Below are positions 12,847 to 32,600 of a stretch of 42,790 nt of DNA, in pieces. Numbering within the stretch: position 1 is the stretch's first letter; each line of letters starts with the position of its first letter. The stretch is from a virus. The notes under the pieces are model-generated. The model ran no database searches. It had not been told where the DNA came from and saw only the letters and a program-made list of their open reading frames with translations. The stretch covers positions 1 through 42,790 of IMG/VR virus record IMGVR_UViG_3300043331_000121, one strand, 5' to 3'. Both the position numbers and the translations under genes were made by a program.

Positions 12847-13749
12847 ATGTCAGACATTCAGATCCAGCCGTCTACCCCCACGGTAGACGTGCCTACGACT
12901 ACGCCGACGCCAACTGAGGGCGGTAAACCTCAGGTCAAGGCTGAAGACAAGACCCCGGAAGCAGCCACCGAGGGCGAAAACACAGACGGTACGACAACCA
13001 CCGATGACGGCCAGAAGCCTGAAAAAGGCGAGGGTGGCTATCAGAGACGGATCAATCGGCTTACGTCCGAGAAATACCGAGAGCGCGCTCGTGCAGAGCA
13101 GCTTGAGGCTCGGCTTCGTGAGCTTGAAAGCAAGTCACAGCAACCGCAGGCGAAAGCCCAGGACACCGACCTCAAAGCCCCTCGTGTCGAGGATTTCAAA
13201 TCCTACGAGGACTACGAGCGAGCGCGCGACGATTACCTAACGGAGAAAGTCCGCAGGGACACGAAGCGCGAGCTGGAAGAACAGCGCAAGGCCTCCGAAG
13301 CCAAGCAGGCCGAAGAGACCGAGCGCGAGCGCATCACGAAGGCCCGCGAACAGTTCGACAAACGAGCTGAAGAAGTCGCGGAGAGCTTCGAAGATTTCGA
13401 CGACATGCTGTCCGACCTCTACACCGGAAATCATCCGGCGAAGGCGTTGGACCGGCAGGGACTCGAGTTCATCTTCGAAGGCTCCGAACGCGGTCCCGAG
13501 TTGATGCACAAACTCTGGCTGAAACCGGAAGAGGCACGGCGCATCGCCGCGCTTCGTCCCGTCCAACAGGTTGCCGAACTTGCCCGGCTTGAGGCTTCGC
13601 TCACGAAGCCCGCGGCCAAAACCACACAAGCGCCGCCCCCGCCCAAGACGGTCGGGCCACGCGGCGGGTCGGATGGCAAGGACCCGGAAAAGATGACGAT
13701 CGAAGAGATGCGCAAAGCCACAGGCACGCGCCGGATCGTCAGAGACTAA
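12847..13749 (+). CDS. Scaffolding protein
   Basis: The 300-aa product lies directly before the coat gene, where P22 gp8 is encoded. It has an acidic, Thr/Pro-rich disordered start (1-60), a long highly charged helical middle (about 60-190, Glu/Lys/Arg/Gln-rich, with VEDFKSYEDYERARDDYLTEK), and a basic C-terminal region (MTIEEMRKATGTRRIVRD) that could contact coat protein. The length matches P22 gp8 (303 aa). The call rests on position and composition. Confidence 0.8.
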   Translation: MSDIQIQPSTPTVDVPTTTPTPTEGGKPQVKAEDKTPEAATEGENTDGTTTTDDGQKPEKGEGGYQRRINRLTSEKYRERARAEQLEARLRELESKSQQPQAKAQDTDLKAPRVEDFKSYEDYERARDDYLTEKVRRDTKRELEEQRKASEAKQAEETERERITKAREQFDKRAEEVAESFEDFDDMLSDLYTGNHPAKALDRQGLEFIFEGSERGPELMHKLWLKPEEARRIAALRPVQQVAELARLEASLTKPAAKTTQAPPPPKTVGPRGGSDGKDPEKMTIEEMRKATGTRRIVRD

Positions 13750-13766
13750 CGGAAACCACTCTCCGG

Positions 13767-13784
13767 CCTCACCCAAATCTGAGG
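13767..13784 (+). promoter_or_regulatory. Small hairpin before the coat gene
   Basis: CCTCA (13767-13771) pairs with TGAGG (13780-13784) around an 8-nt loop, just ahead of the AAGGA ribosome-binding site of the coat gene. It could present that site in an open form or stabilise the coat message. It is short and may be chance. Confidence 0.25.
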
Positions 13785-13791
13785 CAAGGAA

Positions 13792-15021
13792 ATGGCAAAC
13801 AGCCACTTAACGCCCACGGTGATCGCCAAGCGCATGATGATGCACTTGGACAACAACCTCATCGCGGGCAATCTCGTTTATCGCGACTACGAGGCCGAGT
13901 TCGGCTCAACGAAGGTCGGGTCGAGCGTCAAAATCCGCCGCCCCGTCGAATTTGCAATCACGAGCGGCGCAACGCTCAACACGCAAGACATCACGGAAGG
14001 CGATCTCACGCTTACCGTGGACCAGCGCTACCACATCGGCTTTTCGATGTCGGACACCGATCTCACGCTGACTATCGATCAGTGGGACGAGCGCTACGGC
14101 AAGCCTGCCGCGATCAAGATCGCAAACCAGATCGACGCGTCGATCTACAACCAGTACTACAAGTTCAACAACTGGGTCGGCACGCCGGGCCAGACGATCA
14201 ACAGCCACGCGGACTTCCTGAAGGCTGTTGAACGGCTGGACGTTCTTGCGGTTCCGACCGACATGCGCCGCGCAATTCTGTCGCCGAACGATTGGCACGG
14301 GCTCGCGGGCGCATTCTCTGCGCTGTACATCAACGGCGTTGCCGGCGATGCGCTGAAGCAGGGCGTGCTGCCCTCGATCGGCGGCGTCGACGTCTACATG
14401 GCCCAGAACGTGAAGGCCCATACGGTCGGCACGGGCACGGGCACGCCGCTCACGCGCGGTGCGTCGCAGGGCGTCACTTACGCGTCGGTCAAGTCTTCGA
14501 TGACCCAGACGTTCCTCACGGACGGCTGGACGACCAACGTGGGCCTGAAGCAGGGCGACGTCTTCACGATCAACGAAGTGTATGACGTCAACCCGATCAC
14601 GAAGGCTGCGCTGCCGCATCTGAAGATGTTCACGATCCAGGCGGACGTGACTACCAACACGACATCTTCGAACGCCACGACGCTGACCATTTACCCGGCA
14701 CTCATCACCACGGGTCCGTATCAGAATGTCAGCGCCGACAACGGCAACGACAAGACGATCACGTATCTGGGCACGGCTGCGACAGCCTATCCGCAGAACT
14801 TGGTGTTCCACAAGAACGCCATGGCTCTCGCGATGGTGCCGATCCAGCAGGCGCCTGCCGGCGCCGGCGTGATGCAGGCAACGGAGCGTCACAAGGGGCT
14901 CAGTCTCCAGTACAGCGCTCAGTACGACATCACGAACGCCGTCATGGTCTATCGCTTCGACGCTCTTTGGGGCGTAGAGGTTGTCGACCGTCGCCTTGGC
15001 GTTCGGGCGTCCGGCTCGTAA
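13792..15021 (+). CDS. Major capsid protein, P22 gp5-like
   Basis: The 409-aa protein resembles the P22 coat family (430 aa in P22). Characteristic parts are the start with LTPTVIAKRMMMHLDNNLIAGNLVYRDYEAEF, GSSVKIRRPVEF, and the middle DMRRAILSPNDWHGLAGAFSALY. The HK97-type fold builds the icosahedral shell. Its position after the scaffold gene agrees. The ATG follows AAGGA. High-value expression is expected, and the gene has a uniformly GC-rich third codon position. Confidence 0.92.
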   Translation: MANSHLTPTVIAKRMMMHLDNNLIAGNLVYRDYEAEFGSTKVGSSVKIRRPVEFAITSGATLNTQDITEGDLTLTVDQRYHIGFSMSDTDLTLTIDQWDERYGKPAAIKIANQIDASIYNQYYKFNNWVGTPGQTINSHADFLKAVERLDVLAVPTDMRRAILSPNDWHGLAGAFSALYINGVAGDALKQGVLPSIGGVDVYMAQNVKAHTVGTGTGTPLTRGASQGVTYASVKSSMTQTFLTDGWTTNVGLKQGDVFTINEVYDVNPITKAALPHLKMFTIQADVTTNTTSSNATTLTIYPALITTGPYQNVSADNGNDKTITYLGTAATAYPQNLVFHKNAMALAMVPIQQAPAGAGVMQATERHKGLSLQYSAQYDITNAVMVYRFDALWGVEVVDRRLGVRASGS

Positions 15022-15039
15022 GGGAAAGGAGAAACATCA

Positions 15040-15336
15040 ATGGCAGTTCGTCAACTTTCTCGCGGCGACGATGACGGCACGGTTCTCGGTCAATCGACTG
15101 CGGACCTCATCGGCTTCTACGGCACGTCGACGCCCGTCGCTCAGCCGAGCGGCGCGGCGCAGCAGCTCATCACGGATGCAAGCGGCGGCACTGGTGCGCC
15201 GTCCAACGGCATCCTGACGATCACGGCGTCGTACAACTCGACCATCCTCGCCAACGCGATCAAGACGCTTTCGGATGGCGTCAATGCCTGCCGCAACGCG
15301 CTTGTGAGCGTCAACCTCATGAAGGGATCGTCATAA
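15040..15336 (+). CDS. Small capsid-associated protein, putative decoration
   Basis: The 98-aa product follows the coat gene with a strong ribosome-binding site (GGGAAAGGAGAAA). It starts MAVRQLSRGDDDGTVLGQSTADLIGFYGTSTPVAQPSGAAQ, a phrase conserved in small phage proteins encoded next to coat genes, and ends with a helix (NAIKTLSDGVNACRNALVSV). It is probably a head decoration or fibre protein; this is inferred from neighbours and the motif. Confidence 0.6.
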   Translation: MAVRQLSRGDDDGTVLGQSTADLIGFYGTSTPVAQPSGAAQQLITDASGGTGAPSNGILTITASYNSTILANAIKTLSDGVNACRNALVSVNLMKGSS

Positions 15337-15342
15337 CCCTGC

Positions 15343-16011
15343 ATGATCTTTGTCGGCATCCCGGCCTATGACCGGAAAGTATCGATTCAGACGGCGCAAT
15401 CGCTTCTGAACGAGTATGGCGCGGCCCACCAGATCGGGACCGACATTGAGGTACATTTTACGCCAGGGTGTTCGCTGATCACCCTGGCGCGCAACTATCT
15501 GGTGAAGCGTTTTCTGGCTAGCGAAGCGCAGAAAATGGTTTTCATCGACAGCGACGTCGCATGGGAGCCCGGCGCTCTGATCCGGCTGGCGTCGTACAAG
15601 CGCCCCATCGTTGCCGGCGTCTACCGCTTCAAGGACGACAAGGAGCGTTATCCGGTCCACTTCCTGAAGACGAGCAGGGGCATTTGGACCGACAAAGACG
15701 GCTTGGTCGAGGTGGCAACCGCACCGACCGGGTTCATGTGCATCGACCGCAAGGCGCTGCGCGCGTTCCAGGCCAAATACCCGAAGCGGAATTACAAGAT
15801 TCAGGGCGAGGACATTTACGCGTTCTTCGAAAACCCATACCGCGACGGCGAGCTGGTCGGCGAGGACTGCGGCTTCTGCATCGAGATGCGCAAGATCGGG
15901 CAGAAGGTCTACATCGACCCCGAGATGATGCTCACGCACGTCGACGGGCCGAAGGAATACACCGGCAAGATTTCGGATTTTCTGCGCGGTCAGGATGAGG
16001 CCAAGAAGTGA
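15343..16011 (+). CDS. Glycosyltransferase-like protein 1 (GT-A fold)
   Basis: The 222-aa product starts MIFVGIPAYDRKVSIQTAQSLLNE and has a DSD motif at 69-71 (VFIDSDVAWEPG), the usual metal and nucleotide-sugar site of GT-A enzymes. Further motifs are PTGFMCIDRKALRAF and GEDCGFCIEM, an acceptor-side acidic pair. It would transfer a sugar from an activated donor to an unknown acceptor. It shares order of motifs with the genes at 17334 and 18002, so the three are paralogues. It opens a five-gene cassette between coat and head-tail connector genes. Confidence 0.8.
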   Translation: MIFVGIPAYDRKVSIQTAQSLLNEYGAAHQIGTDIEVHFTPGCSLITLARNYLVKRFLASEAQKMVFIDSDVAWEPGALIRLASYKRPIVAGVYRFKDDKERYPVHFLKTSRGIWTDKDGLVEVATAPTGFMCIDRKALRAFQAKYPKRNYKIQGEDIYAFFENPYRDGELVGEDCGFCIEMRKIGQKVYIDPEMMLTHVDGPKEYTGKISDFLRGQDEAKK

Positions 16012-16880
16012 CCCAACAGGACATCGTGATCGGCGCGGTTGACGGCTATGAGTGGCCGCAGTGCGATCTGTGGGCCAACTCGCTCAAGATGAGCGGGTAC
16101 ACGGGCCGCAAGGCGCTGATCGTCTACGACGCGTCGGACGACTTCCTAGCCTGGGCCACGCGCGAAGGGTTCGAGATCGTGCGGGCGGAGAAGAACCCGG
16201 CCCAGCCGGTCTACTGGAAGCGGTATTTCGACATCTGGAAGGCCGCAAAGCAGCTTCGCTTGGACGAAGCGCGCTACGTGATCCACACCGACGTTCGGGA
16301 CGTGGTGTTTCAGCGGAACCCGAGCGAGTGGCTGACGACGCATTGGACGATGCCCGTCATGGTCGTTTCCGAGGCGATCAAGCATAAGGACACATGGTTT
16401 AACCGGGAGTGCACTAAGCAGGCTTTTGGCGAAGAAGCATACGAGCTGTTGGCCGACGAAGAGGTCTATTGCTCTGGCGTTATCGCGGGCATATGGGCAG
16501 ATGGCCTCAACGAGCTTTTCTTGCAGATTTTCCTTCTGTGTCGCGGCTCCGCAGTTGCGAATTGCGATCAAGCAGCGATGAACATTATCGTCAATTCGAG
16601 GGCGTGGGGCGTCGCAGCAAATGAAGGCTTTGGCGATCTAGCCGCCATGGATCGCGGATGGGCCTGTCACTGCGCGGTCTCGCTCGATCCTGCTATGCGG
16701 CAATTCCTGACCGAAGACCCGCCCGTCATCGACGGCGACACGGTGAAGACGTCGGACGGCAAGCCCTTCGCCATCGTCCATCAATACGACCGCATCCCAG
16801 AGTTGGCCGCTGCATTTGCGAGGAAGTATGGATCTGCTCCTAGGCTGCGGAACGAACAGAACGAACCGGCTGCGGCCTGA
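16008..16880 (+). CDS. Glycosyltransferase-like protein 2
   Basis: The GTG start overlaps the upstream stop. The 290-aa product has the layout of a nucleotide-sugar transferase: an opening strand DIVIGAVDGYEW, VYWKRYFDIWKAAKQL, and HTDVRDVVFQRNP with D95-V-R-D98 as the DxD-like site. EVYCSGVIAGIW and NCDQAAMNIIV follow, as in GT families acting on host or capsid sugars. It differs from the three paralogues and is probably a separate family. The acceptor is not known. Confidence 0.7.
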   Translation: MTQQDIVIGAVDGYEWPQCDLWANSLKMSGYTGRKALIVYDASDDFLAWATREGFEIVRAEKNPAQPVYWKRYFDIWKAAKQLRLDEARYVIHTDVRDVVFQRNPSEWLTTHWTMPVMVVSEAIKHKDTWFNRECTKQAFGEEAYELLADEEVYCSGVIAGIWADGLNELFLQIFLLCRGSAVANCDQAAMNIIVNSRAWGVAANEGFGDLAAMDRGWACHCAVSLDPAMRQFLTEDPPVIDGDTVKTSDGKPFAIVHQYDRIPELAAAFARKYGSAPRLRNEQNEPAAA

Positions 16881-17337
16881 TTGGGTCTATCGGAATATCG
16901 TTACGCTCGACATCGACCCATCGCTTGCGCCAGATCATGTCTGGGACATGAACGAAGTCCCACTTCCGTTCGACGACAACAGCGCAGACACGATCAGCGC
17001 ATTCGAGGTTTTGGAACACGTCGGGCGTCAAGGCGATTGGCGCTTCTTCTTCCGCCAGTTCGAAGACTTCTGGCGCATTTTGAAGCCGGGCGGGATCATG
17101 TTCATCACGTGCCCGCGGTGGGATGGTGAGTGGGCGCTCGGAGACCCCGGACATACGCGCGTGCTTCCGCCCGCCTGCTTCGCGTTCCTGCATCAGCCGA
17201 TGTACGCGCAATGCGGCAAGACCGCGATGACGGATTACCGCCCCTGGTACAAAGGCGATTTCGACTTCGAAGTGCAGAAGGGTGAGGGACACATTGGCGT
17301 TGGGCTACGCGCCGTGAAACCAGCGAGGATCGCTTGA
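16828..17337 (+). CDS. SAM-dependent methyltransferase (class I)
   Basis: The 169-aa product shows MDLLLGCGTNR (motif I, residues 4-10), VTLDIDPSLAPD (motif II, D28/D30), ADTISAFEVLEHV and RILKPGGIMFI, as in class I methyltransferases of the UbiE/small-molecule or sugar type. It overlaps the preceding glycosyltransferase by 53 nt and the next by 4. Within a glycosyltransferase cassette it probably methylates a sugar or the acceptor. The start ATG follows GAGGA closely; TTG 16816 is possible. Confidence 0.8.
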   Translation: MDLLLGCGTNRTNRLRPDWVYRNIVTLDIDPSLAPDHVWDMNEVPLPFDDNSADTISAFEVLEHVGRQGDWRFFFRQFEDFWRILKPGGIMFITCPRWDGEWALGDPGHTRVLPPACFAFLHQPMYAQCGKTAMTDYRPWYKGDFDFEVQKGEGHIGVGLRAVKPARIA

Positions 17338-18005
17338 AAGTTTGGGTCGGCATACCGGCATATCAAGCAACCGTCTCGTGCGCGACGATGTATTCGCTGC
17401 TGAACGAGATCAAACTCGGTGCGCAGAACGGCATCGACATCGAATTTTACTGCCTGCCCGGCATGTCGCTCGTGCACATGGCGCGCAACTGGCTGGCCTA
17501 CAAATTCTTGCACGAGACGAAGGCGGACAAGTTCGTCCAGGTCGATGCGGACGTTGGGTTTCGCGCGGGGACGATGCTTCACTTGCTCCGCCATGACGTG
17601 CCAGTGGTCGCGGCCGGCGTGCGGCGCCGGAGCGATCCCGAAGACTACGCGATCACGTGGCTCGACAGCGGCGTAGACCAAGACCCAAAGACGTCGCTGA
17701 TCGAAATCGATTCCATCGGCATGGCGCTGACATCGATCACGCGCGATTGCCTGCTTGAGTTTCGCGAGAAGACGCCTGAACTGGCCTACGGCTTCAACGG
17801 CCAGGTGCATCACGGTTTTTACCAATGCCCGATCAATGAAGGTTTGGCGGTCGGTGAAGACGTCTTCTTCTGCCGCAAGTGGCGCGAGTTGGGCGGCAAG
17901 GTGTGGTTGGACCCACGGCATCTGACCACTCACAACGACGGCGTTCGCATCTATTCGGGCTGCGTCGGAACTTGGCTCAATTCGAAGCTGAAAGAGGTCG
18001 CGTGA
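17334..18005 (+). CDS. Glycosyltransferase-like protein 3 (paralogue of 15343)
   Basis: The TTG start overlaps the methyltransferase stop. The 223-aa product begins MKVWVGIPAYQATVSCATMYSLLNE and repeats the first paralogue: PGMSLVHMARNWLAYKFL, DAD at 71-73 (VQVDADVGFRAG), and GEDVFFCRKWRELGGKVWLDP. The arrangement and length are the same as gene 15343, so duplication is likely. It probably modifies a different acceptor or links a second sugar. Confidence 0.8.
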   Translation: MKVWVGIPAYQATVSCATMYSLLNEIKLGAQNGIDIEFYCLPGMSLVHMARNWLAYKFLHETKADKFVQVDADVGFRAGTMLHLLRHDVPVVAAGVRRRSDPEDYAITWLDSGVDQDPKTSLIEIDSIGMALTSITRDCLLEFREKTPELAYGFNGQVHHGFYQCPINEGLAVGEDVFFCRKWRELGGKVWLDPRHLTTHNDGVRIYSGCVGTWLNSKLKEVA

Positions 18006-18721
18006 GCAATCTAACGAAGGCTGAGTTCAAGCGCCCCGGCGCAGATCAACACGTCTGTATCGCCACGCCAGCGCACACGATCCACTCGAATTTTCACGTC
18101 AGCATCATTCGAAGCATTCCTGTGCTTTTGGACGCTAACATCAGCGTCACCTATGCGCACCTCGCGGGGCACTGTCACGTAGACGATGCGCGCAATTTGC
18201 TTGTTGCTGACTTTCTAAAAACCAACGCGACAGACTTGCTGTTCTGGGACGCTGACGTGGGGGCCGAGCCGAGTGCCGCTCGGCGACTATTGGCGCATAA
18301 CGCTGATGTCGTTGGTGGCGCGTACCCTCTAAAAAATGGCAGCGGGCGCTTTCCGGTGCGTCGGCTTCCCAAGCCGTTCCGCGATGATTGGCGCGCCGAC
18401 GGGCTCATTGAAGTGGAGGCGATTGCCACCGGATTTCTGCGCATTCGGCGCGGCGTTTTTGAAGCGCTGCGCGGGAGCTGCGTTGATGTCGACTTGGACG
18501 ACACGAGCGCGCTCGTGTTCTTCAATCGCGACGAAGAGCAAGCCGATTACGACCCTCGGCGCATGGTCCGTGTTGGCGGCGATATGAACTTTTGCCGCAA
18601 ATGGACTGCCGTGGGCGGGAAGATCTTCTGCGACCCATCACTGCTCTTCACGCACCAAGGCGCCGTCGATTTCGCGGGCCGCTTGTCCGATCACCTCCAA
18701 CAGCGGGAGGCCGCCGAATGA
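18002..18721 (+). CDS. Glycosyltransferase-like protein 4 (divergent paralogue)
   Basis: The GTG overlaps the upstream stop; an upstream in-frame start at 17879 is ignored. The 239-aa product contains HVCIATPAHTIHSNF, VDDARNLLVADFL, DAD at 83-85 (LLFWDADVGAEPSAARRLL), DVVGGAYPLK and GGDMNFCRKWTAVGGKIFCDP, aligning with the other two paralogues. It is the most divergent of the three, with an extended N-terminus and a Trp-poor middle. Its stop is coupled to the next gene (ATGA). Confidence 0.75.
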   Translation: MSNLTKAEFKRPGADQHVCIATPAHTIHSNFHVSIIRSIPVLLDANISVTYAHLAGHCHVDDARNLLVADFLKTNATDLLFWDADVGAEPSAARRLLAHNADVVGGAYPLKNGSGRFPVRRLPKPFRDDWRADGLIEVEAIATGFLRIRRGVFEALRGSCVDVDLDDTSALVFFNRDEEQADYDPRRMVRVGGDMNFCRKWTAVGGKIFCDPSLLFTHQGAVDFAGRLSDHLQQREAAE

Positions 18722-18915
18722 CCGAATACGTCTACCAGGAATACCCGCGCGACCTCGTGAGCCGTGAAGGAAAGCTCCGCGAGTTCAAGAACAAGGAAAG
18801 CGTTCCGCCGGGCTGGTTCGTGCGCGACGGCTTGAAGGAAGAAGTGAACCCGGCCAAGGCGAAAGGCGATGAGGCGACAGGCGTCAAGGTCGTCAGCGTC
18901 GAGGCGACGGAGTGA
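18718..18915 (+). CDS. Hypothetical protein, 65 aa
   Basis: The ATG overlaps the preceding TGA. The product starts MTEYVYQEYPRDLVSREGKLREFKNKESVPPGWFVRDGL and has a Lys/Glu-rich end. A short aromatic and basic protein with no recognised family. It closes the glycosyltransferase cassette and precedes virion genes, so it may belong to either. Confidence 0.5.
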   Translation: MTEYVYQEYPRDLVSREGKLREFKNKESVPPGWFVRDGLKEEVNPAKAKGDEATGVKVVSVEATE

Positions 18916-19238
18916 GTTCGGCAAAGAACTTCGTCATCAATGCCGGGGAAGACCGCACGCTGTCGATGGTGGCGCGAGACGCGAACGGCGACATCTTGAA
19001 CCTGACCGACGCCACAATCGCTTGGCGCATGTCGCTGATCGCAGGCGACACTTCAACCGTTTCGAAGACCGGCTCCGTCGTTTCGGCATCGGCCGGCACG
19101 TTCACCGTGTCACTGACGGACGCGGACACCGACATTGATGAAGGCGATTACGCACATCAGGCGCTCGCGACCATATCGGGCACGACGACGCTTTGCGCGC
19201 GAGGGATTGTTCGCATTATGAAGACGAACCAGGCTTAA
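18912..19238 (+). CDS. Small beta-sandwich virion protein, putative
   Basis: The GTG start overlaps the previous gene. The 108-aa product is a run of beta strands: KNFVINAGEDRTLSMVARDANGDILNLTDATIAWRMSL, then GTFTVSLTDADTDIDEGDYAHQALATI. It resembles N-terminal domains of phage baseplate or tail proteins (BppU-like), which fold as small beta sandwiches. A structural role is likely; the exact place is unknown. Confidence 0.5.
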   Translation: MSSAKNFVINAGEDRTLSMVARDANGDILNLTDATIAWRMSLIAGDTSTVSKTGSVVSASAGTFTVSLTDADTDIDEGDYAHQALATISGTTTLCARGIVRIMKTNQA

Positions 19239-19242
19239 GGCC

Positions 19243-19626
19243 ATGGCGACCGCGAACGAAATCATCACGGGCGCTTTCGGCAAGGCTGGCATCTACCAGC
19301 CGGAAGACGACATTCAGCCCGAAAGCCTGACCGTCGCGCTCCAGGTGCTCAACGACTACCTGAACGGTCTCAACAATCGCGGCGCGGTGTTTCCGACCGT
19401 GTCGCTCACGATCAACGCGAATGTGCCCGTCAGCGATCAGCAAGTGCGCGACCTGAAATGGGCGCTTGCCGGGGAGCTTTGCTCGCAGTGGGGCAAGGCC
19501 ATGACGGCAGTCGATTTGAACGACGTCACCAAGGCGGACCGCAGGTTCATCGCCGCGTACCGCAAGGTTTATCCAGCCACGGCCGACGCCGGGCTCAACT
19601 TCATGCCTGGTCGCAGGCGCTGGTAG
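19243..19626 (+). CDS. Head-tail connector, P22 gp4-like
   Basis: The 127-aa product fits the gp4 family: an N-terminal EIITGAFGKAGI, a helix SLTVALQVLNDYLNGLNNR, and a C-terminal KWALAGELCSQWGK...ADRRFIAAYRKV. gp4 attaches to the portal ring after packaging and starts tail assembly. It is shorter than P22 gp4 (166 aa). In P22 it directly follows coat protein; here five sugar-modification genes and two small genes separate them. Confidence 0.75.
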   Translation: MATANEIITGAFGKAGIYQPEDDIQPESLTVALQVLNDYLNGLNNRGAVFPTVSLTINANVPVSDQQVRDLKWALAGELCSQWGKAMTAVDLNDVTKADRRFIAAYRKVYPATADAGLNFMPGRRRW

Positions 19627-19634
19627 AGGCTTAA

Positions 19635-20297
19635 ATGGCACAGGAAATCGAAGGCAACGTCCCGTCCGGTTCGGCCGACGGAGGCAATCCGCTCAAGGTT
19701 GGCGGAAAATACAACTCGACGCTTCCTACATTCACGGATGGTCAGCGCGGTGACTTGCAGGTCGGCACGCGTGGCTCTGTGCACGTGTCGCTCAAGGTCG
19801 CAGATTCGTCGCAGAATGTTAGCCTCGCAGCCAGCAATTCGGATGCCTTGGCGGCGGGGGCGATTGCGGATCGTTTCCAAGTTCTCGGGCTTGGTTATGG
19901 CTACGATGGCTCCACGAATTTCAATCGCTGGCGCAACAACAACGACATCACGGTCGCGGCCTCGCTTGCTCGCACAGCAACTGGCAACAGCGGCGATCTG
20001 ACAAACTACAACGCGCGTGGGCTTCACCTCTATGTCGACGTGACGGCCGCGAGCGCAACACCGAGCGTCGTCTTTACCATTCAAGGCAAGGATGCGGTGA
20101 GCGGTGCCTACTATACGATTCTGGCCAGCGCCGCCGTTACGGGCGTTAGCTCCAACATCTACAAGGTTTATCCCGGCTTGACGGCGGCGGCGAACCTTGT
20201 CGCAAGCGACATACTCCCGCGCACATACCGCATTCTTTGGACGCACAGCGACGCGGACTCGATCACCTACAGCATCGGAGCCTCGCTGATCCTCTAA
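19635..20297 (+). CDS. Virion structural protein, hypothetical
   Basis: The 220-aa product starts with a conserved phage phrase, GGNPLKVGGKYNSTLPTFTDGQRGDLQVGTRGSVHVSL, and continues with repeated beta-rich stretches typical of jelly-roll virion proteins (VVFTIQGKDAVSGAYYTILASAAVTG). Proteins with this phrase occur beside tail genes in several phages. It probably belongs to the tail or capsid surface. Its ATG follows a weak purine stretch. Confidence 0.6.
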   Translation: MAQEIEGNVPSGSADGGNPLKVGGKYNSTLPTFTDGQRGDLQVGTRGSVHVSLKVADSSQNVSLAASNSDALAAGAIADRFQVLGLGYGYDGSTNFNRWRNNNDITVAASLARTATGNSGDLTNYNARGLHLYVDVTAASATPSVVFTIQGKDAVSGAYYTILASAAVTGVSSNIYKVYPGLTAAANLVASDILPRTYRILWTHSDADSITYSIGASLIL

Positions 20298-21730: not shown

Positions 21731-22059
21731 CGACCGCAGATCGCACCTACTACCGGGAAACGCGGCAACGCAAGATCCCGGAGCAGCTTCGCCAGAGCGC
21801 AGACATGGTGCGCTTCTTCGAAGAGTTGCTGCACTACCGGACGCATTTACACAGGACGGGAGAGGTTTTCTTCTGGCCCACAAGCGTGACGGTCCCGCTC
21901 AACACGATCCCCGCAGACGGGGCGGCGGTCAGCAGAACCGATTACGCGGCCCTATTCTCCGTGTACGGAACGACGGTGGGCGCGGGCAACGGGACGACGA
22001 CGTTCAATGTCCCGAACGTGACTGCGCCGTCTGGAACGGTGGCGCTGGTGCAGGTGTGA
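21727..22059 (+). CDS. Tail-collar domain protein, at tail-needle position
   Basis: The 110-aa product has a helical N-terminus (RETRQRKIPEQLRQSADMVRFFEELLHYR) and a C-terminal phage tail-collar motif, IPADGAAVSRTDYAALFSVYG...GNGTTTFNVPNV. In P22 the gene at this position encodes the gp26 needle that plugs the tail. This protein is far shorter and carries a collar domain instead, so it may be the analogous closing protein. The GTG start overlaps the previous stop. Confidence 0.65.
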   Translation: MTTADRTYYRETRQRKIPEQLRQSADMVRFFEELLHYRTHLHRTGEVFFWPTSVTVPLNTIPADGAAVSRTDYAALFSVYGTTVGAGNGTTTFNVPNVTAPSGTVALVQV

Positions 22060-22499
22060 TGCTGGTCCGTGAGGCAACGAGCCGAGATGTGCCGGCGATG
22101 CTTGAGGGCGTCAGGGCGTTTGCAAGCATTGCCTATCCTGGCGAACCCATGAGGGTTGATCATGTCGCGAACGTTCTTCGTGGCGTGATGGAAAATCAGG
22201 ACGGGCTGGTGGCGCTGATGGAAACAGATGAGGCCGCATTCGCAGGCATGTTCGTTGCCATCGCGCACCGGGGCATCCTTACCGGAGCGCGCACGATGGG
22301 AGAGGTTCTTTTCTATGTCGATCCGCAGGCGCGCGGGCATGGGAAGAAGCTGTTGAATTTCGCCGAAGAGTGGGCCCGCGAACGCGGTTGCGAGCGCGCC
22401 ACGCTTTGCCATCTCGAAACGACGCCAAATCTGGAAACCGCTTATCGCCGGTGGGGCTACGCCCCGCTTGAGCGGGCCTACATGAAGGAGTTGACCTAG
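22059..22499 (+). CDS. GNAT-family N-acetyltransferase
   Basis: The 146-aa product has a GNAT core: QARGHG (Q90-x-x-G93-x-G95) as the acetyl-CoA pyrophosphate motif, VLFYVDPQ before it, and the C-terminal LETTPNLETAYRRWGYAPL that closes the fold. It would transfer an acetyl group to an amine, perhaps on a virion protein or a sugar. P22 encodes the small gp14 here instead, so this is an extra gene coupled to the operon by TGATG. Confidence 0.8.
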   Translation: MLVREATSRDVPAMLEGVRAFASIAYPGEPMRVDHVANVLRGVMENQDGLVALMETDEAAFAGMFVAIAHRGILTGARTMGEVLFYVDPQARGHGKKLLNFAEEWARERGCERATLCHLETTPNLETAYRRWGYAPLERAYMKELT

Positions 22500-23242: not shown

Positions 23243-24357
23243 TGCCGGCGCCCTACGATTACACAACGCCTCAGGTCAACGTTTCGTCCTATTTCGACGC
23301 CTTCCGTCAAGGCCGCGCCGACAAGCGGCAGATGGAAGCCGAAACGCGTCAGGACAATTTGCGCAAATACCTTGGCCCCGCGTATCAGGGCGACAAGGCG
23401 GCCCAGGCCGAAGTGATGAACATCGATCCCGAGGCCGGGATGAATTTGCAGACGGCGCTTCAAGGCGCGTCGCTGCAAAAGCTCCAGATCGCGAAGGCAC
23501 AAAACGACGCGATTGCGAACTTGGTTGGATCTGTCCGAGACGGAGACGCGGCTGGGTTCGAAGCGGCAAAGCAGCGTGCCGTGTCGGAGCTTGGCATTGA
23601 CCCGCAGATGGTCAGCGGCTTGACGGTTCAAGACCTTCCGCGCCTGAGGCTTCAAAGCGGGCAGACGGCAAGGGAATTGGATGCGGCGTTGCAACGCGCA
23701 CAGATCGATGCATCTAGGGCGAGCGCTGACGCGAGCCGGTCGCTTGCAAATCAACGCACGGCGGGGGGCGCCGCGCTTCCGCCTCGCCTGCAAACTGCCG
23801 AAGACGAAGACATTGGCGCGATCCAAACCGTCCAATCGATCAACGCGCAACTCGATGCGATCGAGGGGCAGATCGATTCTGGCGAGCTTGATCTCGGGCC
23901 TGTCAACAATCTGATCAGCCGTGGCATGAACTACGCAGGCGCCTCCAACGAGGGCAGCATCAACTTCGCCACGATGATGTCCACGCTTGAGAAGATGCGA
24001 AATGACAGCCTCATCCTCAACAAGGGCGTGCAGACAGAAGGTGACGCAGTGCGCGCTTGGAATGCGTTGATCGCCAACGTGAACGATCCCGATGTTGTCA
24101 AGGCGCAGATCGCACGCATCAAAAAGCTGAACGAAATTGCCGCCGCTCAGAAAGAGCAGCTGATCAACGTGCGCCGCACGCGCAACAATGCACCACCCTT
24201 CGATCCGTCGCAGATTGCGCTTCCGGGTGGCGGTGGTGCCCCTGCGCCGGCCGCACCGTCTGGAACGCCGATCGTGAAGACACAGGCCGAGTTCGATGCC
24301 CTGCCGAGTGGCACGGTTTACGTGGAGCCTGACGGCAAAAGGTACCGCAAGCCGTGA
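23242..24357 (+). CDS. Ejection protein, P22 gp20 position
   Basis: The 371-aa product follows the gp7-like gene as gp20 does in P22. It is mostly helical, rich in Ala, Gln and Asp, with coiled-coil stretches (about 60-110 and 130-170). The end, GTPIVKTQAEFDALPSGTVYVEPDGKRYRKP, matches a short C-terminal motif common in phage ejection proteins. Similarity to gp20 is by order rather than clear sequence. ATG 23242 overlaps the upstream TGA (TGATG). Confidence 0.65.
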   Translation: MPAPYDYTTPQVNVSSYFDAFRQGRADKRQMEAETRQDNLRKYLGPAYQGDKAAQAEVMNIDPEAGMNLQTALQGASLQKLQIAKAQNDAIANLVGSVRDGDAAGFEAAKQRAVSELGIDPQMVSGLTVQDLPRLRLQSGQTARELDAALQRAQIDASRASADASRSLANQRTAGGAALPPRLQTAEDEDIGAIQTVQSINAQLDAIEGQIDSGELDLGPVNNLISRGMNYAGASNEGSINFATMMSTLEKMRNDSLILNKGVQTEGDAVRAWNALIANVNDPDVVKAQIARIKKLNEIAAAQKEQLINVRRTRNNAPPFDPSQIALPGGGGAPAPAAPSGTPIVKTQAEFDALPSGTVYVEPDGKRYRKP

Positions 24358-25886
24358 GCAGGTTTGGCGGCGTTCCGGTCGGCGGCCAACAGAAACCGAC
24401 TTCCGGCTCACGCTTTGGCGGCGTGCCCGCTGAAGTTGCGCCACCCGTCCAGCCCGCCCCCGCTCAAGAGCGAGGCGTCGTCGACTCGATCATGCAAGGC
24501 CCTGTCGGCCAGGCCGGTCTTGGTGTGCTTGAGGGCGTATCCAGCTTGCCCGGCCTGCCGCTCGATGCGATTATCGAGGGCGGCAACTTTGTGCGCCGCC
24601 AATTCGATCTTCCCGAGTTCGTGCCGAACGATACGGTTTCGAGCTATCGCGGTCAGGGCTGGTATGACGCAGCGCAAAGATATCTCGGTGTTCCGACAGG
24701 CCCCGCTCCCAAAAACGAAGTCGAACGCATCGCCCGTAAAGGCGGCGTCTTTGCTGGTGGAGCACTCCCGTTTGGACCGGCCGGGATGGTCCCGTCTCTC
24801 ACGGCCACTGCGGGCAGTGAAGTCGGTCGCGCAACGGATAAGGCTGGCCTCACGGGCGGCTATGGCGAGGCTGCGGGAGCACTTGTTGGCGGCGCTGCCC
24901 CTGGCGTCGTTCGAGGCGTACTCACGTCCGGAACAAAAACCGGCGCACCGACAAAACAAAACCTTCGCGACATGTCCCGGCAAAAGTATCTCGAAGCCGA
25001 ACAAGCCGGGGTCATTTTCAATCAAGCCGGGATCAACCGCCTTGCCCAAGGCGTCCGGGCGGATCTCACAAAGCTCAGCTTCCGCCCAAGTCAGCAGCCT
25101 GCCGTCAAAACCGCCCTCGACGAACTAGATGCCGATCTGGCGGGCGGAAACGTCACGCTCGAAGGGCTCGAATCACTGCGCGGCGTTGCGACAAACGCGA
25201 TTCGCGGCACGACAAACCCCGTTGAAAAGACGATGCTGGGCAAGTTCATTGAGCGGATCGACGATCTGGTCGATAGCCCTCAAGCCGGGGAATTGCTAGC
25301 CGGTGATGCGAAGACCGCATCCGCCGCGCTCAAAGAGGCGCGCGCGTACTGGAAACAGATGCGCAAGTCGGAAATCATCGATGAGGCGCTGGACACGGGC
25401 GAATTGAACGCCGCGACGGCGGGCTCCGGCGGCAACGTCGACAACGCCATACGCCAACGGATCAAGGCGATTATCCGCAACAAAAAGCTGCGCTCTCAGT
25501 TCACGAGCGAGGAGCTGTTTTTGATGCAGCGCGTCGCACGCGGCTCGGTCTCTCACAACATTCTGCGCGGTCTGGGCGCTCTGTCGCCGGATAAGGGGAT
25601 GTTGCCGCTGGTCGCTACGGCGGCGCTGAGCGGCGGGATCGTGACTGGGGGCGTGTCGCCACTTGCAGCGGCGGCGATACCTGCCGCGATGGCGGCCAGG
25701 CGCGGGGCTGAGGCGCTGACGCGACGCAACGTCGGCCGGCTATCCGAAGCGGTCCGTCGTGGACCCGCGCCGCAACTGACACGCGCGCAGAAGGCGCAAG
25801 CGGCATTCGAAGAAGCGCAGCGGCGCGCAAGGTTGATTCGTCAGTCGGGCCGCGCCGCGATCCCCGGCGCGCTCAACAACGACTAG
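24354..25886 (+). CDS. Ejection protein, P22 gp16 position
   Basis: The 510-aa product is last of the three ejection genes. Its start repeats a short unit (SRFGGVP at residues 2-8 and 19-25). A Gly/Ala-rich region with hydrophobic stretches (about 130-195 and 420-450, MLPLVATAALSGGIVTGG) alternates with helical, Ala/Glu-rich segments, as expected of proteins that insert into or span membranes. No lytic-transglycosylase motif is evident. The GTG start overlaps the previous stop. Confidence 0.65.
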   Translation: MSRFGGVPVGGQQKPTSGSRFGGVPAEVAPPVQPAPAQERGVVDSIMQGPVGQAGLGVLEGVSSLPGLPLDAIIEGGNFVRRQFDLPEFVPNDTVSSYRGQGWYDAAQRYLGVPTGPAPKNEVERIARKGGVFAGGALPFGPAGMVPSLTATAGSEVGRATDKAGLTGGYGEAAGALVGGAAPGVVRGVLTSGTKTGAPTKQNLRDMSRQKYLEAEQAGVIFNQAGINRLAQGVRADLTKLSFRPSQQPAVKTALDELDADLAGGNVTLEGLESLRGVATNAIRGTTNPVEKTMLGKFIERIDDLVDSPQAGELLAGDAKTASAALKEARAYWKQMRKSEIIDEALDTGELNAATAGSGGNVDNAIRQRIKAIIRNKKLRSQFTSEELFLMQRVARGSVSHNILRGLGALSPDKGMLPLVATAALSGGIVTGGVSPLAAAAIPAAMAARRGAEALTRRNVGRLSEAVRRGPAPQLTRAQKAQAAFEEAQRRARLIRQSGRAAIPGALNND

Positions 25887-29440: not shown

Positions 29441-29513
29441 CGGTACGAGGGCCCAGAATCGAACTGGGGCCTTTGGCGTGAGCGCCAACGCTCTACCACT
29501 GAGCTACCCAAGC
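29441..29513 (-). tRNA. Degenerate tRNA-like element
   Basis: Read on the minus strand, a D arm (GCTC AGTGGTA GAGC), an anticodon-like arm TTGGC/GCCAA and a perfect T arm (CCCAG TTCGATT CTGGG) are present in the right order. The acceptor stem GCTTGGG/CCCTCGT has two mismatches in the middle, the anticodon loop is 6 nt (GCTCAC) rather than 7, the variable loop is 4 nt, and CCG replaces CCA. It may be a decayed phage tRNA, an unusual tRNA, or a mimic. No isotype is assigned. Confidence 0.55.
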
Positions 29514-31580: not shown

Positions 31581-32600
31581 TCAGGTTTGTAAGATTCCTG
31601 AGTCGTTCTGTAGCTTCCCAATCGCCGACCTGGCTAGCCGCTCTTGACTTGCGGCGCGTGCGTACTTCTGCACCATCGCCAGCGTTTCGTGACCCGTGAT
31701 CGACATGATCTCATGGGCTGTGCACCCAGCCTCCGCCAGCTTTCGAGCGGCGGCTTTCCTTAGCCCGTGCAGCACGCAATCGCTGTCATCCCCCAAGGCA
31801 GTTTCAATCGCATCCGCCATGACCGCGCCGAAGTGCCGCGACTTCAGCGGAAGAAGGCGCGCATTCGACGTTGCCGCCCCGCGCTCCCCCAGCACCTCGC
31901 GCAAGTTCGGGTGGATGGGGATAACTAGTCTGGCCCCAGTCTTCTGCTGCGCCACAGCGATCACGTCGCGCCGCACATGGCCCCACGTCATTGCCAAGAG
32001 GTCGCCCTTCCTTTGGCCTGTATAAAGCGCCAAGGCGTAGGCCAGCCGCTCTCGCGTTCCAGGCGCCCATTGAGCTTCAAACTTGGCCAGCTCATCGTCG
32101 GTCCACGACCGATGCTCCCCCATCTTGAGCTTTGAGATCCCCAGCGCCGGGTTCTTTTTCACATAGTCGCGGCGCTCCGCGAACGTCAGCAGCTTCTTGA
32201 TGCATGAAAGCATGTTGTTCGCCTTGCCCGGGTTCGCGGCCAGTTCGTCCTGCCATTTCTCAATGTGTCGGCGCTCGATCCGGTCAACCGGCTTATCCCC
32301 CCACCTCTTCTGAATGCGCTTCACTTCGCGCTTCGTTTCGATCTGGTTGCGCTTGCTCAGTTGGCCGAAGCCGGCGGAACAAAGAAATTCATCGCATAGG
32401 GCGTCCCAGGTTCCGGCCGCCGCGCGATACGGCTTGTGCTCCGTTGCCTTTAGGGCCTCTTGGTACTGAGCGACAAACCCCGGATCGTCTGGCGGCAACG
32501 TCAAGGCCACCGATTTCCCGTTTCGGCGCACGTAGCGGCGTGTCTTGTTGTAACGATCAACGAACTCGTTCACGTGCGGCAGCGTCGCTTTACGTGTCAT
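31581..32600 (-). CDS. int: Tyrosine site-specific integrase
   Basis: The 339-aa product shows the full tyrosine-recombinase set: R197 (TGQRKGDLLAM), K220 (QQKTGARL), H278-x-x-R281 (LHGLRKAAARKLAEAG), H304 (TGHETLAMVQKYA) and nucleophile Y313. The N-terminal part has an arm-binding basic region (1-60) and a core-binding SAM-like domain (62-155). It should integrate and excise the phage at tRNA-Pro. It is last in the leftward operon next to attP; the right arm repeat overlaps its 3' end. Confidence 0.95.
   Translation of the reverse strand: MTRKATLPHVNEFVDRYNKTRRYVRRNGKSVALTLPPDDPGFVAQYQEALKATEHKPYRAAAGTWDALCDEFLCSAGFGQLSKRNQIETKREVKRIQKRWGDKPVDRIERRHIEKWQDELAANPGKANNMLSCIKKLLTFAERRDYVKKNPALGISKLKMGEHRSWTDDELAKFEAQWAPGTRERLAYALALYTGQRKGDLLAMTWGHVRRDVIAVAQQKTGARLVIPIHPNLREVLGERGAATSNARLLPLKSRHFGAVMADAIETALGDDSDCVLHGLRKAAARKLAEAGCTAHEIMSITGHETLAMVQKYARAASQERLARSAIGKLQNDSGILQT
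31584..31598 (+). repeat. Direct repeat, predicted integrase arm site (right)
   Basis: The second GGTTTGTAAGATTCC lies within the end of the integrase gene. It sits in an imperfect palindrome, CTCAGG (31580-31585) with CCTGAG (31597-31602), which on the leftward transcript would form a hairpin at the integrase stop. Confidence 0.6.

Follow-up and report, generated by a model that had tools for sequence, protein, structure and literature searches.

A recurrent glycosyltransferase and methyltransferase cassette between the coat and adaptor genes of P22-type phages, a candidate module for virion glycosylation

The stretch of DNA analysed here, referred to below as the window (IMG/VR record IMGVR_UViG_3300043331_000121, positions 1 to 42,790), belongs to a P22-type phage and carries five consecutive genes, A to E, in the slot between the coat gene and the gene for the gp4-like head-tail adaptor. 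Genes A, D and E encode glycosyltransferases (GTs) and gene C encodes a class I S-adenosylmethionine (SAM) methyltransferase. This GT-methyltransferase slot is not confined to the present phage and recurs in many P22-type phages. The cassette is interpreted as a phage-encoded virion-glycosylation module that would attach a short, methylated glycan to one of the virion proteins, with a small protein encoded next to the coat as the likeliest acceptor, and the probability of this reading is put at roughly 0.55. The recurrence of the slot and the co-inheritance of its enzymes with the small protein suggest, at the level of sequence, that these viruses coat their own particles with sugars.

Genes A, D and E are paralogues (A and D share 37% identity, E 4e-48; A and E share 31%, E 1e-26) and belong to PHROG 1574, a family without an assigned function. 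The AlphaFold2 model of A, built from 43 relatives, is a single soluble domain (predicted local distance difference test score, pLDDT, 96.9; predicted template-modelling score, pTM, 0.92). The solved structure closest to it is A197 of Sulfolobus turreted icosahedral virus (STIV; PDB 2C0N; Z 18.6, 2.2 Å over 162 residues), followed by the human collagen glycosyltransferases LH3 and COLGALT1, Mimivirus R699 and yeast Mnn9; the polysaccharide enzymes TarP and K4CP are among the weaker matches. Viral and protein-glycosylating enzymes head these matches to the model, and the fold does not fix the acceptor. Kinship with A197 is also detected by the GT family profile (E 1.4e-6).

Residues Asp69 and Asp71 (the DxD motif), Asp175 and His199 show no variation across the 43 sequences, A, D and E among them. 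Gene D has an alanine in place of the conserved Gly130 of the G-loop and retains all four of these hallmark residues, and gene E has a glycine in place of Glu174, which precedes Asp175, with the other hallmarks retained. A, D and E are GT-A glycosyltransferases, the fold being taken from the model of A and the activity being predicted. An initial annotation made from the sequence of the window had proposed four GT-like genes, three of them paralogues with DSD/DAD motifs, together with a SAM methyltransferase. The three paralogues and the methyltransferase, which matches Methyltransf_11, are borne out; gene B, the fourth candidate, has no family or profile match.

Gene B contains an HTDxxD stretch and may be a further transferase. 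It gave no match in Pfam, PHROG or NCBIfam, no meaningful match in a PDB sequence search and no similarity to the A, D and E profiles, and its single-sequence model (pLDDT 40.6) was too poor for a structure search. Its sole relative is Rctr41k_22 (26-28% identity), and no relative of it was found in IMG/VR. In Virus Rctr41k (L004:10114-13673, where L-numbers are the locus labels of the present analysis) the block containing this relative has methyltransferase-like and HAD-hydrolase-like genes and lies far from the capsid genes.

The survey of related genomes that the initial annotation had proposed was based on P22-type coats from IMG/VR and GTDB, fetched by coat sequence alone and regardless of enzymes. 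The coat-to-adaptor gap was read with purpose-built profiles in 50 representatives at 80% coat identity, a GT being counted when it was of the PHROG 1574 type or of one of two alternative types (GT2-like, or the L025/L052 type, which lacks a library match). The slot is found again in this survey, with a GT in 18 of the 50 representatives and a methyltransferase as well in eight of the 18. Fewer than 120 bp separate coat and adaptor in 15 of the 50, so that the statement that gp4 usually follows the coat directly applies to these and not to the others. Along the coat tree, the presence of a GT switches at least nine times and that of a methyltransferase at least ten times. Two further, annotated phages have related orders: coat, small protein, methyltransferase, GT, small open reading frame (ORF) and adaptor in MW202573, and coat, HNH, small protein, GT fused to a methyltransferase domain and P22 tail accessory factor in MW202691.

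Two variants of slot content were seen alongside these. The L025/L052-type protein (L025:11590-12468, L052:9543-10280, L228 and L266) is a further protein type that stands after the small protein, replacing the GT or beside it; its start appears DUF115/Maf-like by eye (a VVGGGP... stretch), and it has no Pfam or PHROG match. In L226, L242, L244 and similar loci the GT-family proteins of the slot have 720-765 residues against the usual 220.

Gene A alone gave no match as an IMG/VR query, and alignments were used as queries for the GT searches there instead. Of the 80 loci fetched with GT A, 58 adjoin a P22-type coat, 15 a phrog_371 major head protein and two a tail spike (L145 and L167), while the remaining five have the GT close to a contig edge. 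All 78 further loci fetched with GT E lie in P22-type blocks, beside the coat (69), the adaptor or gp10 (five) or the small protein (four, on truncated contigs). Virion-structural blocks hold 153 of these 158 nearest relatives of A and E, and the other five start near a contig edge. The phrog_371-type arrangement (within L138-L177, e.g. L163:7846-10955) occurs in 15 loci, plus four cut by contig ends, and has the GT just downstream of the unrelated head protein, directly after a Thr-rich protein of 169 residues.

The small coat-adjacent protein is one of a family in which an IGFYGxTPVxQ motif is combined with a Thr/Ala-rich middle and a C-terminal part read as helical. It was scanned for with alignment A9, alignment A8 being too diverse. 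The family has no match in the PDB and no solid match in PHROG, the 'head fiber protein' hit of one member having E 0.084. The Thr/Ser richness of the protein was dropped as evidence of O-glycosylation, since the proteins of GT-less slots are nearly as rich.

When fetched by its own sequence, the small protein has a P22-type coat as its neighbour in 73 of 74 loci, and 60 of the 74 contain a GT of the family. In the coat survey a GT is present in 13 of the 16 representatives with the small protein and in five of the 34 without it (Fisher p 9e-6). Partial Mantel tests give a correlation between GT and small protein, given the coat, of r 0.29 over 80 loci (p 0.001) and of r 0.52 over the 31 loci in which the GT is flush with both neighbours (p 0.001). 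In these 31 flush loci the correlation between GT and coat, given the small protein, is -0.04, and that between GT and gp4 is -0.006, a weak control owing to saturated gp4 distances. Compared with the window, L098 shares 36% identity in the coat, 56% in the small protein and 47% in gene A, and L018 shares 76% in the coat and 49% in the small protein. The partial correlations and these two cases indicate that the enzymes and the small protein tend to move together.

Several observations weigh against this interpretation. Independent pairs on the coat tree score 5:0 for small protein and GT with a median p of 0.06; strong as the association is, few events remain once kinship is corrected for. 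The saturation of the gp4 distances means that linkage is not fully excluded. Some slots have a GT and lack the small protein (L015, L033, L035, L083 and L091), and others have the small protein and lack a GT (L096, L185, L186 and L218-L221). The loci fetched with the GTs are nearest relatives by design, and distant members of the GT family are found in other phages among early or replication genes, so that virion blocks are not the only setting of the family.

The GT slots that lack the small protein could also be explained if virion glycosylation takes place on the coat or a fibre, with the small protein travelling along only as a neighbour of the GT. Such an acceptor would be compatible with the position of the GT family next to the phrog_371 head protein in a second phage type and next to the tail spike in two loci, and over the whole set the GT weakly follows the coat given the small protein (r 0.13, p 0.004). 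However, in the flush loci the GT follows the small protein and not the coat, and the identities of the small protein in L098 and L018, and of gene A in L098, do not run parallel to those of the coat. A coat or fibre acceptor is accordingly regarded as unlikely, at a level that still deserves attention.

The GT and METHYLTRANSFERASE go together in the slot. Among 204 distinct coats with a closed slot, a GT-enriched sample, a methyltransferase is present in 79 and is accompanied by a GT in 78 of these. The lone case of a methyltransferase without a GT (L016, also L017) is a hybrid of 135 residues with a GT start and a methyltransferase end. This hybrid (L016:11907-12314, L017:7660-8067) joins the first part of a GT in frame to the last part of methyltransferase C, as would result from a deletion of the greater part of both genes. 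Two methyltransferase families accompany the GTs: the C family, which recurs in the slot of other P22-type loci (L015, L069, L256 and others, 40-53% identity), and a domain fused to the GT, which has a weak Methyltransf_24 match and matches solved methyltransferases at E 2.8e-6. A comparison of methyltransferase C with the fused domain using hhalign found no link, and the two are therefore treated as separate families.

The nearest kin of genes D and E are L122:4855 and L122:5511 (46% identity each), the first and second genes of an adjacent D-E pair in L122 and L129. In these loci a GT-methyltransferase fusion takes the place of A to C beside the pair, an arrangement that would fit an ordered pathway.

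The preservation of the D-E order also bears on the possibility that the gap between coat and adaptor simply tolerates the insertion of cargo genes unrelated to the virion. Other inserts do occur there, namely HNH nucleases (L016 and L005), a beta-helix protein (L022) and a toxin-like gene (L038), but among enzymes GT and methyltransferase clearly predominate, the same GTs have been joined by methyltransferases of two unrelated families, and members of this GT family also stand next to another type of capsid. A simple cargo site is thus very improbable. The toxin-like protein (L038:5362-6665) has 316 residues and a variable-looking C-terminal part and is accompanied in the slot by a partner of 118 residues.

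In the proposed virion-glycosylation mechanism, A, D and E, with B possibly as a fourth enzyme, would be made together with the late structural genes and would act successively in the cytoplasm, building a short glycan sugar by sugar on a virion protein. The small Thr/Ser-rich protein is favoured as the acceptor because the GTs travel with it; the coat would be the second choice and is still considered, since the small protein is missing from a minority of the GT slots. Methyltransferase C would then methylate, and so cap, the glycan. As to order, the first GT may act together with methylation, followed by the two further GTs. The presence of the small protein in the virion, its role as acceptor, the use of donor sugars, the sequence of the enzymatic steps and the capping by methylation are inferences. 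A wider proposal, that a dedicated small virion protein and exchangeable A197-like GTs and methyltransferases are swapped as a unit against the coat background, in a system widespread and undescribed in P22-type phages that would give each phage a different methyl-capped glycan surface, is advanced tentatively, at somewhat less than even odds.

The initial annotation had also preferred modification of virion proteins to conversion of the host O-antigen, noting the lack of a flippase. GtrA (PF04138), the flippase family of seroconversion, was not found in the record and was detected in seven control genomes. Modification of virion proteins remains the best-supported reading, given the location in virion blocks, the co-segregation with the small protein and the match to A197, with the acceptor and donor as conjectural elements. 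Phage-borne GTs are generally known to modify the host envelope (lipopolysaccharide, O-antigen or capsule), for example against superinfection or re-adsorption of progeny, and the integrase, which makes the phage probably temperate, and the weaker structural matches to polysaccharide enzymes would be in keeping with such a role. Besides the missing GtrA, this role is opposed by the single soluble domain of the modelled GT, by the late virion block location of nearly all near relatives and by the linkage to the coat-adjacent small protein, and it is judged distinctly improbable.

Glycosylation of modified bases in the phage DNA was considered as well, since PMC12619734 cites Pyle 2024 for the hypermodification of DNA by virus-encoded glycosyltransferases in other phages, and distant members of the GT family lie near replication genes. 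The capsid-block location and the small-protein linkage argue against a DNA target, as does the search for a thymidylate-synthase-type hydroxymethylase (PF00303), which found none in the record and gave matches in nine controls; the TET/JBP dioxygenase PF12851 was not found in the record or detected in any control genome. A DNA target is accordingly the least credible of the explanations considered, with a very small probability.

The positions of the genes in the window are collected in Table 1. The cassette lies between the coat and the gp4-like connector as initially annotated, with two further small ORFs before the connector. Genes A to E are on the coat strand, and the overlap by a few bases that had been described is found at A/B, C/D and D/E (4 bases each) and not at B/C, where it amounts to 53 bases; gene E overlaps the following ORF by 4 bases. 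The 4-base and 53-base overlaps make the A to E block look translationally coupled. GC content and GC content at third codon positions (GC3) of the cassette resemble those of its neighbours. A search for promoter-like sites in 13700-19800, a weak test, found none, and a DNA-level search of phages with the cassette gave only one 46-base match. The Ad3 match of the adaptor gene is weak, and the match of the downstream gp10 (head-closure Hc3) is clear.

Table 1. Genes of the window in and around the coat-adaptor slot
Feature	Position	Strand	Evidence or remark
Terminase	6705		P22-type phage window
Portal	8256		P22_portal E 2.7e-177
Scaffold-like protein	12847		
P22-type coat protein	13792..15021	+	P22_CoatProtein E 1.3e-50; phrog_283 E 1.3e-83; upstream slot border
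Small protein, 98 residues	15040..15336	+	IGFYGxTPVxQ-type motif, Thr/Ser-rich middle; family defined in present analysis
Gene A, GT-A glycosyltransferase (predicted), PHROG 1574/A197-like	15343..16011	+	phrog_1574 E 1.7e-27
Gene B, possible further transferase	16008..16880	+	HTDxxD stretch; no family match
Gene C, class I SAM methyltransferase	16828..17337	+	Methyltransf_11 E 2.5e-8; TTG 16816 is an alternative start
Gene D, GT-A glycosyltransferase paralogue (predicted)	17334..18005	+	phrog_1574 E 2.6e-14
Gene E, GT-A glycosyltransferase paralogue (predicted)	18002..18721	+	phrog_1574 E 1.6e-18
Small ORF, 65 residues	18718..18915	+	4-base overlap with gene E
Small ORF before adaptor	18912..19238	+	No family match in library scan
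gp4-like head-tail adaptor	19243..19626	+	phrog_637 Ad3 E 1.5e-4; precedes Hc3/gp10; downstream slot border
gp10/Hc3	end 21730		E 1.9e-81
Ejection-type protein	after gp10/Hc3		
Endolysin	27885		
Integrase	31581-32600	minus	

Three other features of the window were observed. A GNAT-type acetyltransferase (22056-22499; phrog_1249, E 3e-17) is encoded within the late region and may likewise act as a modifying enzyme. A late protein of 510 residues (24354-25886) matches phrog_21712, 'major head protein' (E 8e-24), despite the coat gene at 13792, and the label of this family is perhaps wrong. The ARAGORN tRNA call at 29442-29513 on the minus strand has a two-base anticodon and is probably false.

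The combination of coat, IGFYG-motif protein, A197-like GTs, methyltransferase and adaptor provides a genomic marker; the P22-type contigs that carry it number well over a hundred, and it also occurs in bacterial genomes, Reyranella among them. For PHROG 1574 and the STIV A197 line the slot points to a possible function, and it gives direct predictions for mass spectrometry of virions. If the proposal is correct, the surface glycan would be a quickly exchanged phage trait, relevant to adsorption, protection and recognition. To our knowledge, virion glycosylation in tailed phages has been shown in only a few cases, and no paper on a GT slot between coat and adaptor was found in the open-licence literature.

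With Gtr O-antigen conversion cassettes the present system shares sugar transferases carried by P22-type temperate phages; it differs from them in having no GtrA flippase found in the record and soluble enzymes, as modelled, inside the virion gene block. Phage GTs that glycosylate virion proteins have been described for mycobacteriophages Che8, Corndog and Myrna (Freeman 2023, as described in PMC12363180 and PMC12619734). The action on virion proteins shown there is what is proposed here; the mycobacteriophage systems differ in capsid type and gene location, and the present cassette adds a methyltransferase. When A, D and E were compared by tblastn with 50,697 phage records (E 1e-5), no mycobacteriophage was among the matches; the present enzymes belong with A197 and PHROG 1574 and, as far as this sequence comparison goes, not with the mycobacteriophage enzymes. 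STIV A197 is a long-standing candidate glycosyltransferase for the STIV coat protein (PMC4187194). It resembles the present GTs in fold, sequence kinship, viral origin and proposed action on a coat protein, but it is an archaeal virus enzyme, itself uncharacterized, whereas the present GTs occur in tailed phages with a P22-type coat, usually one to three to a slot with a methyltransferase and tied to a small coat-adjacent protein. PHROG 1574, of which A, D and E are members, gains a genomic context and a structural match from the present analysis.

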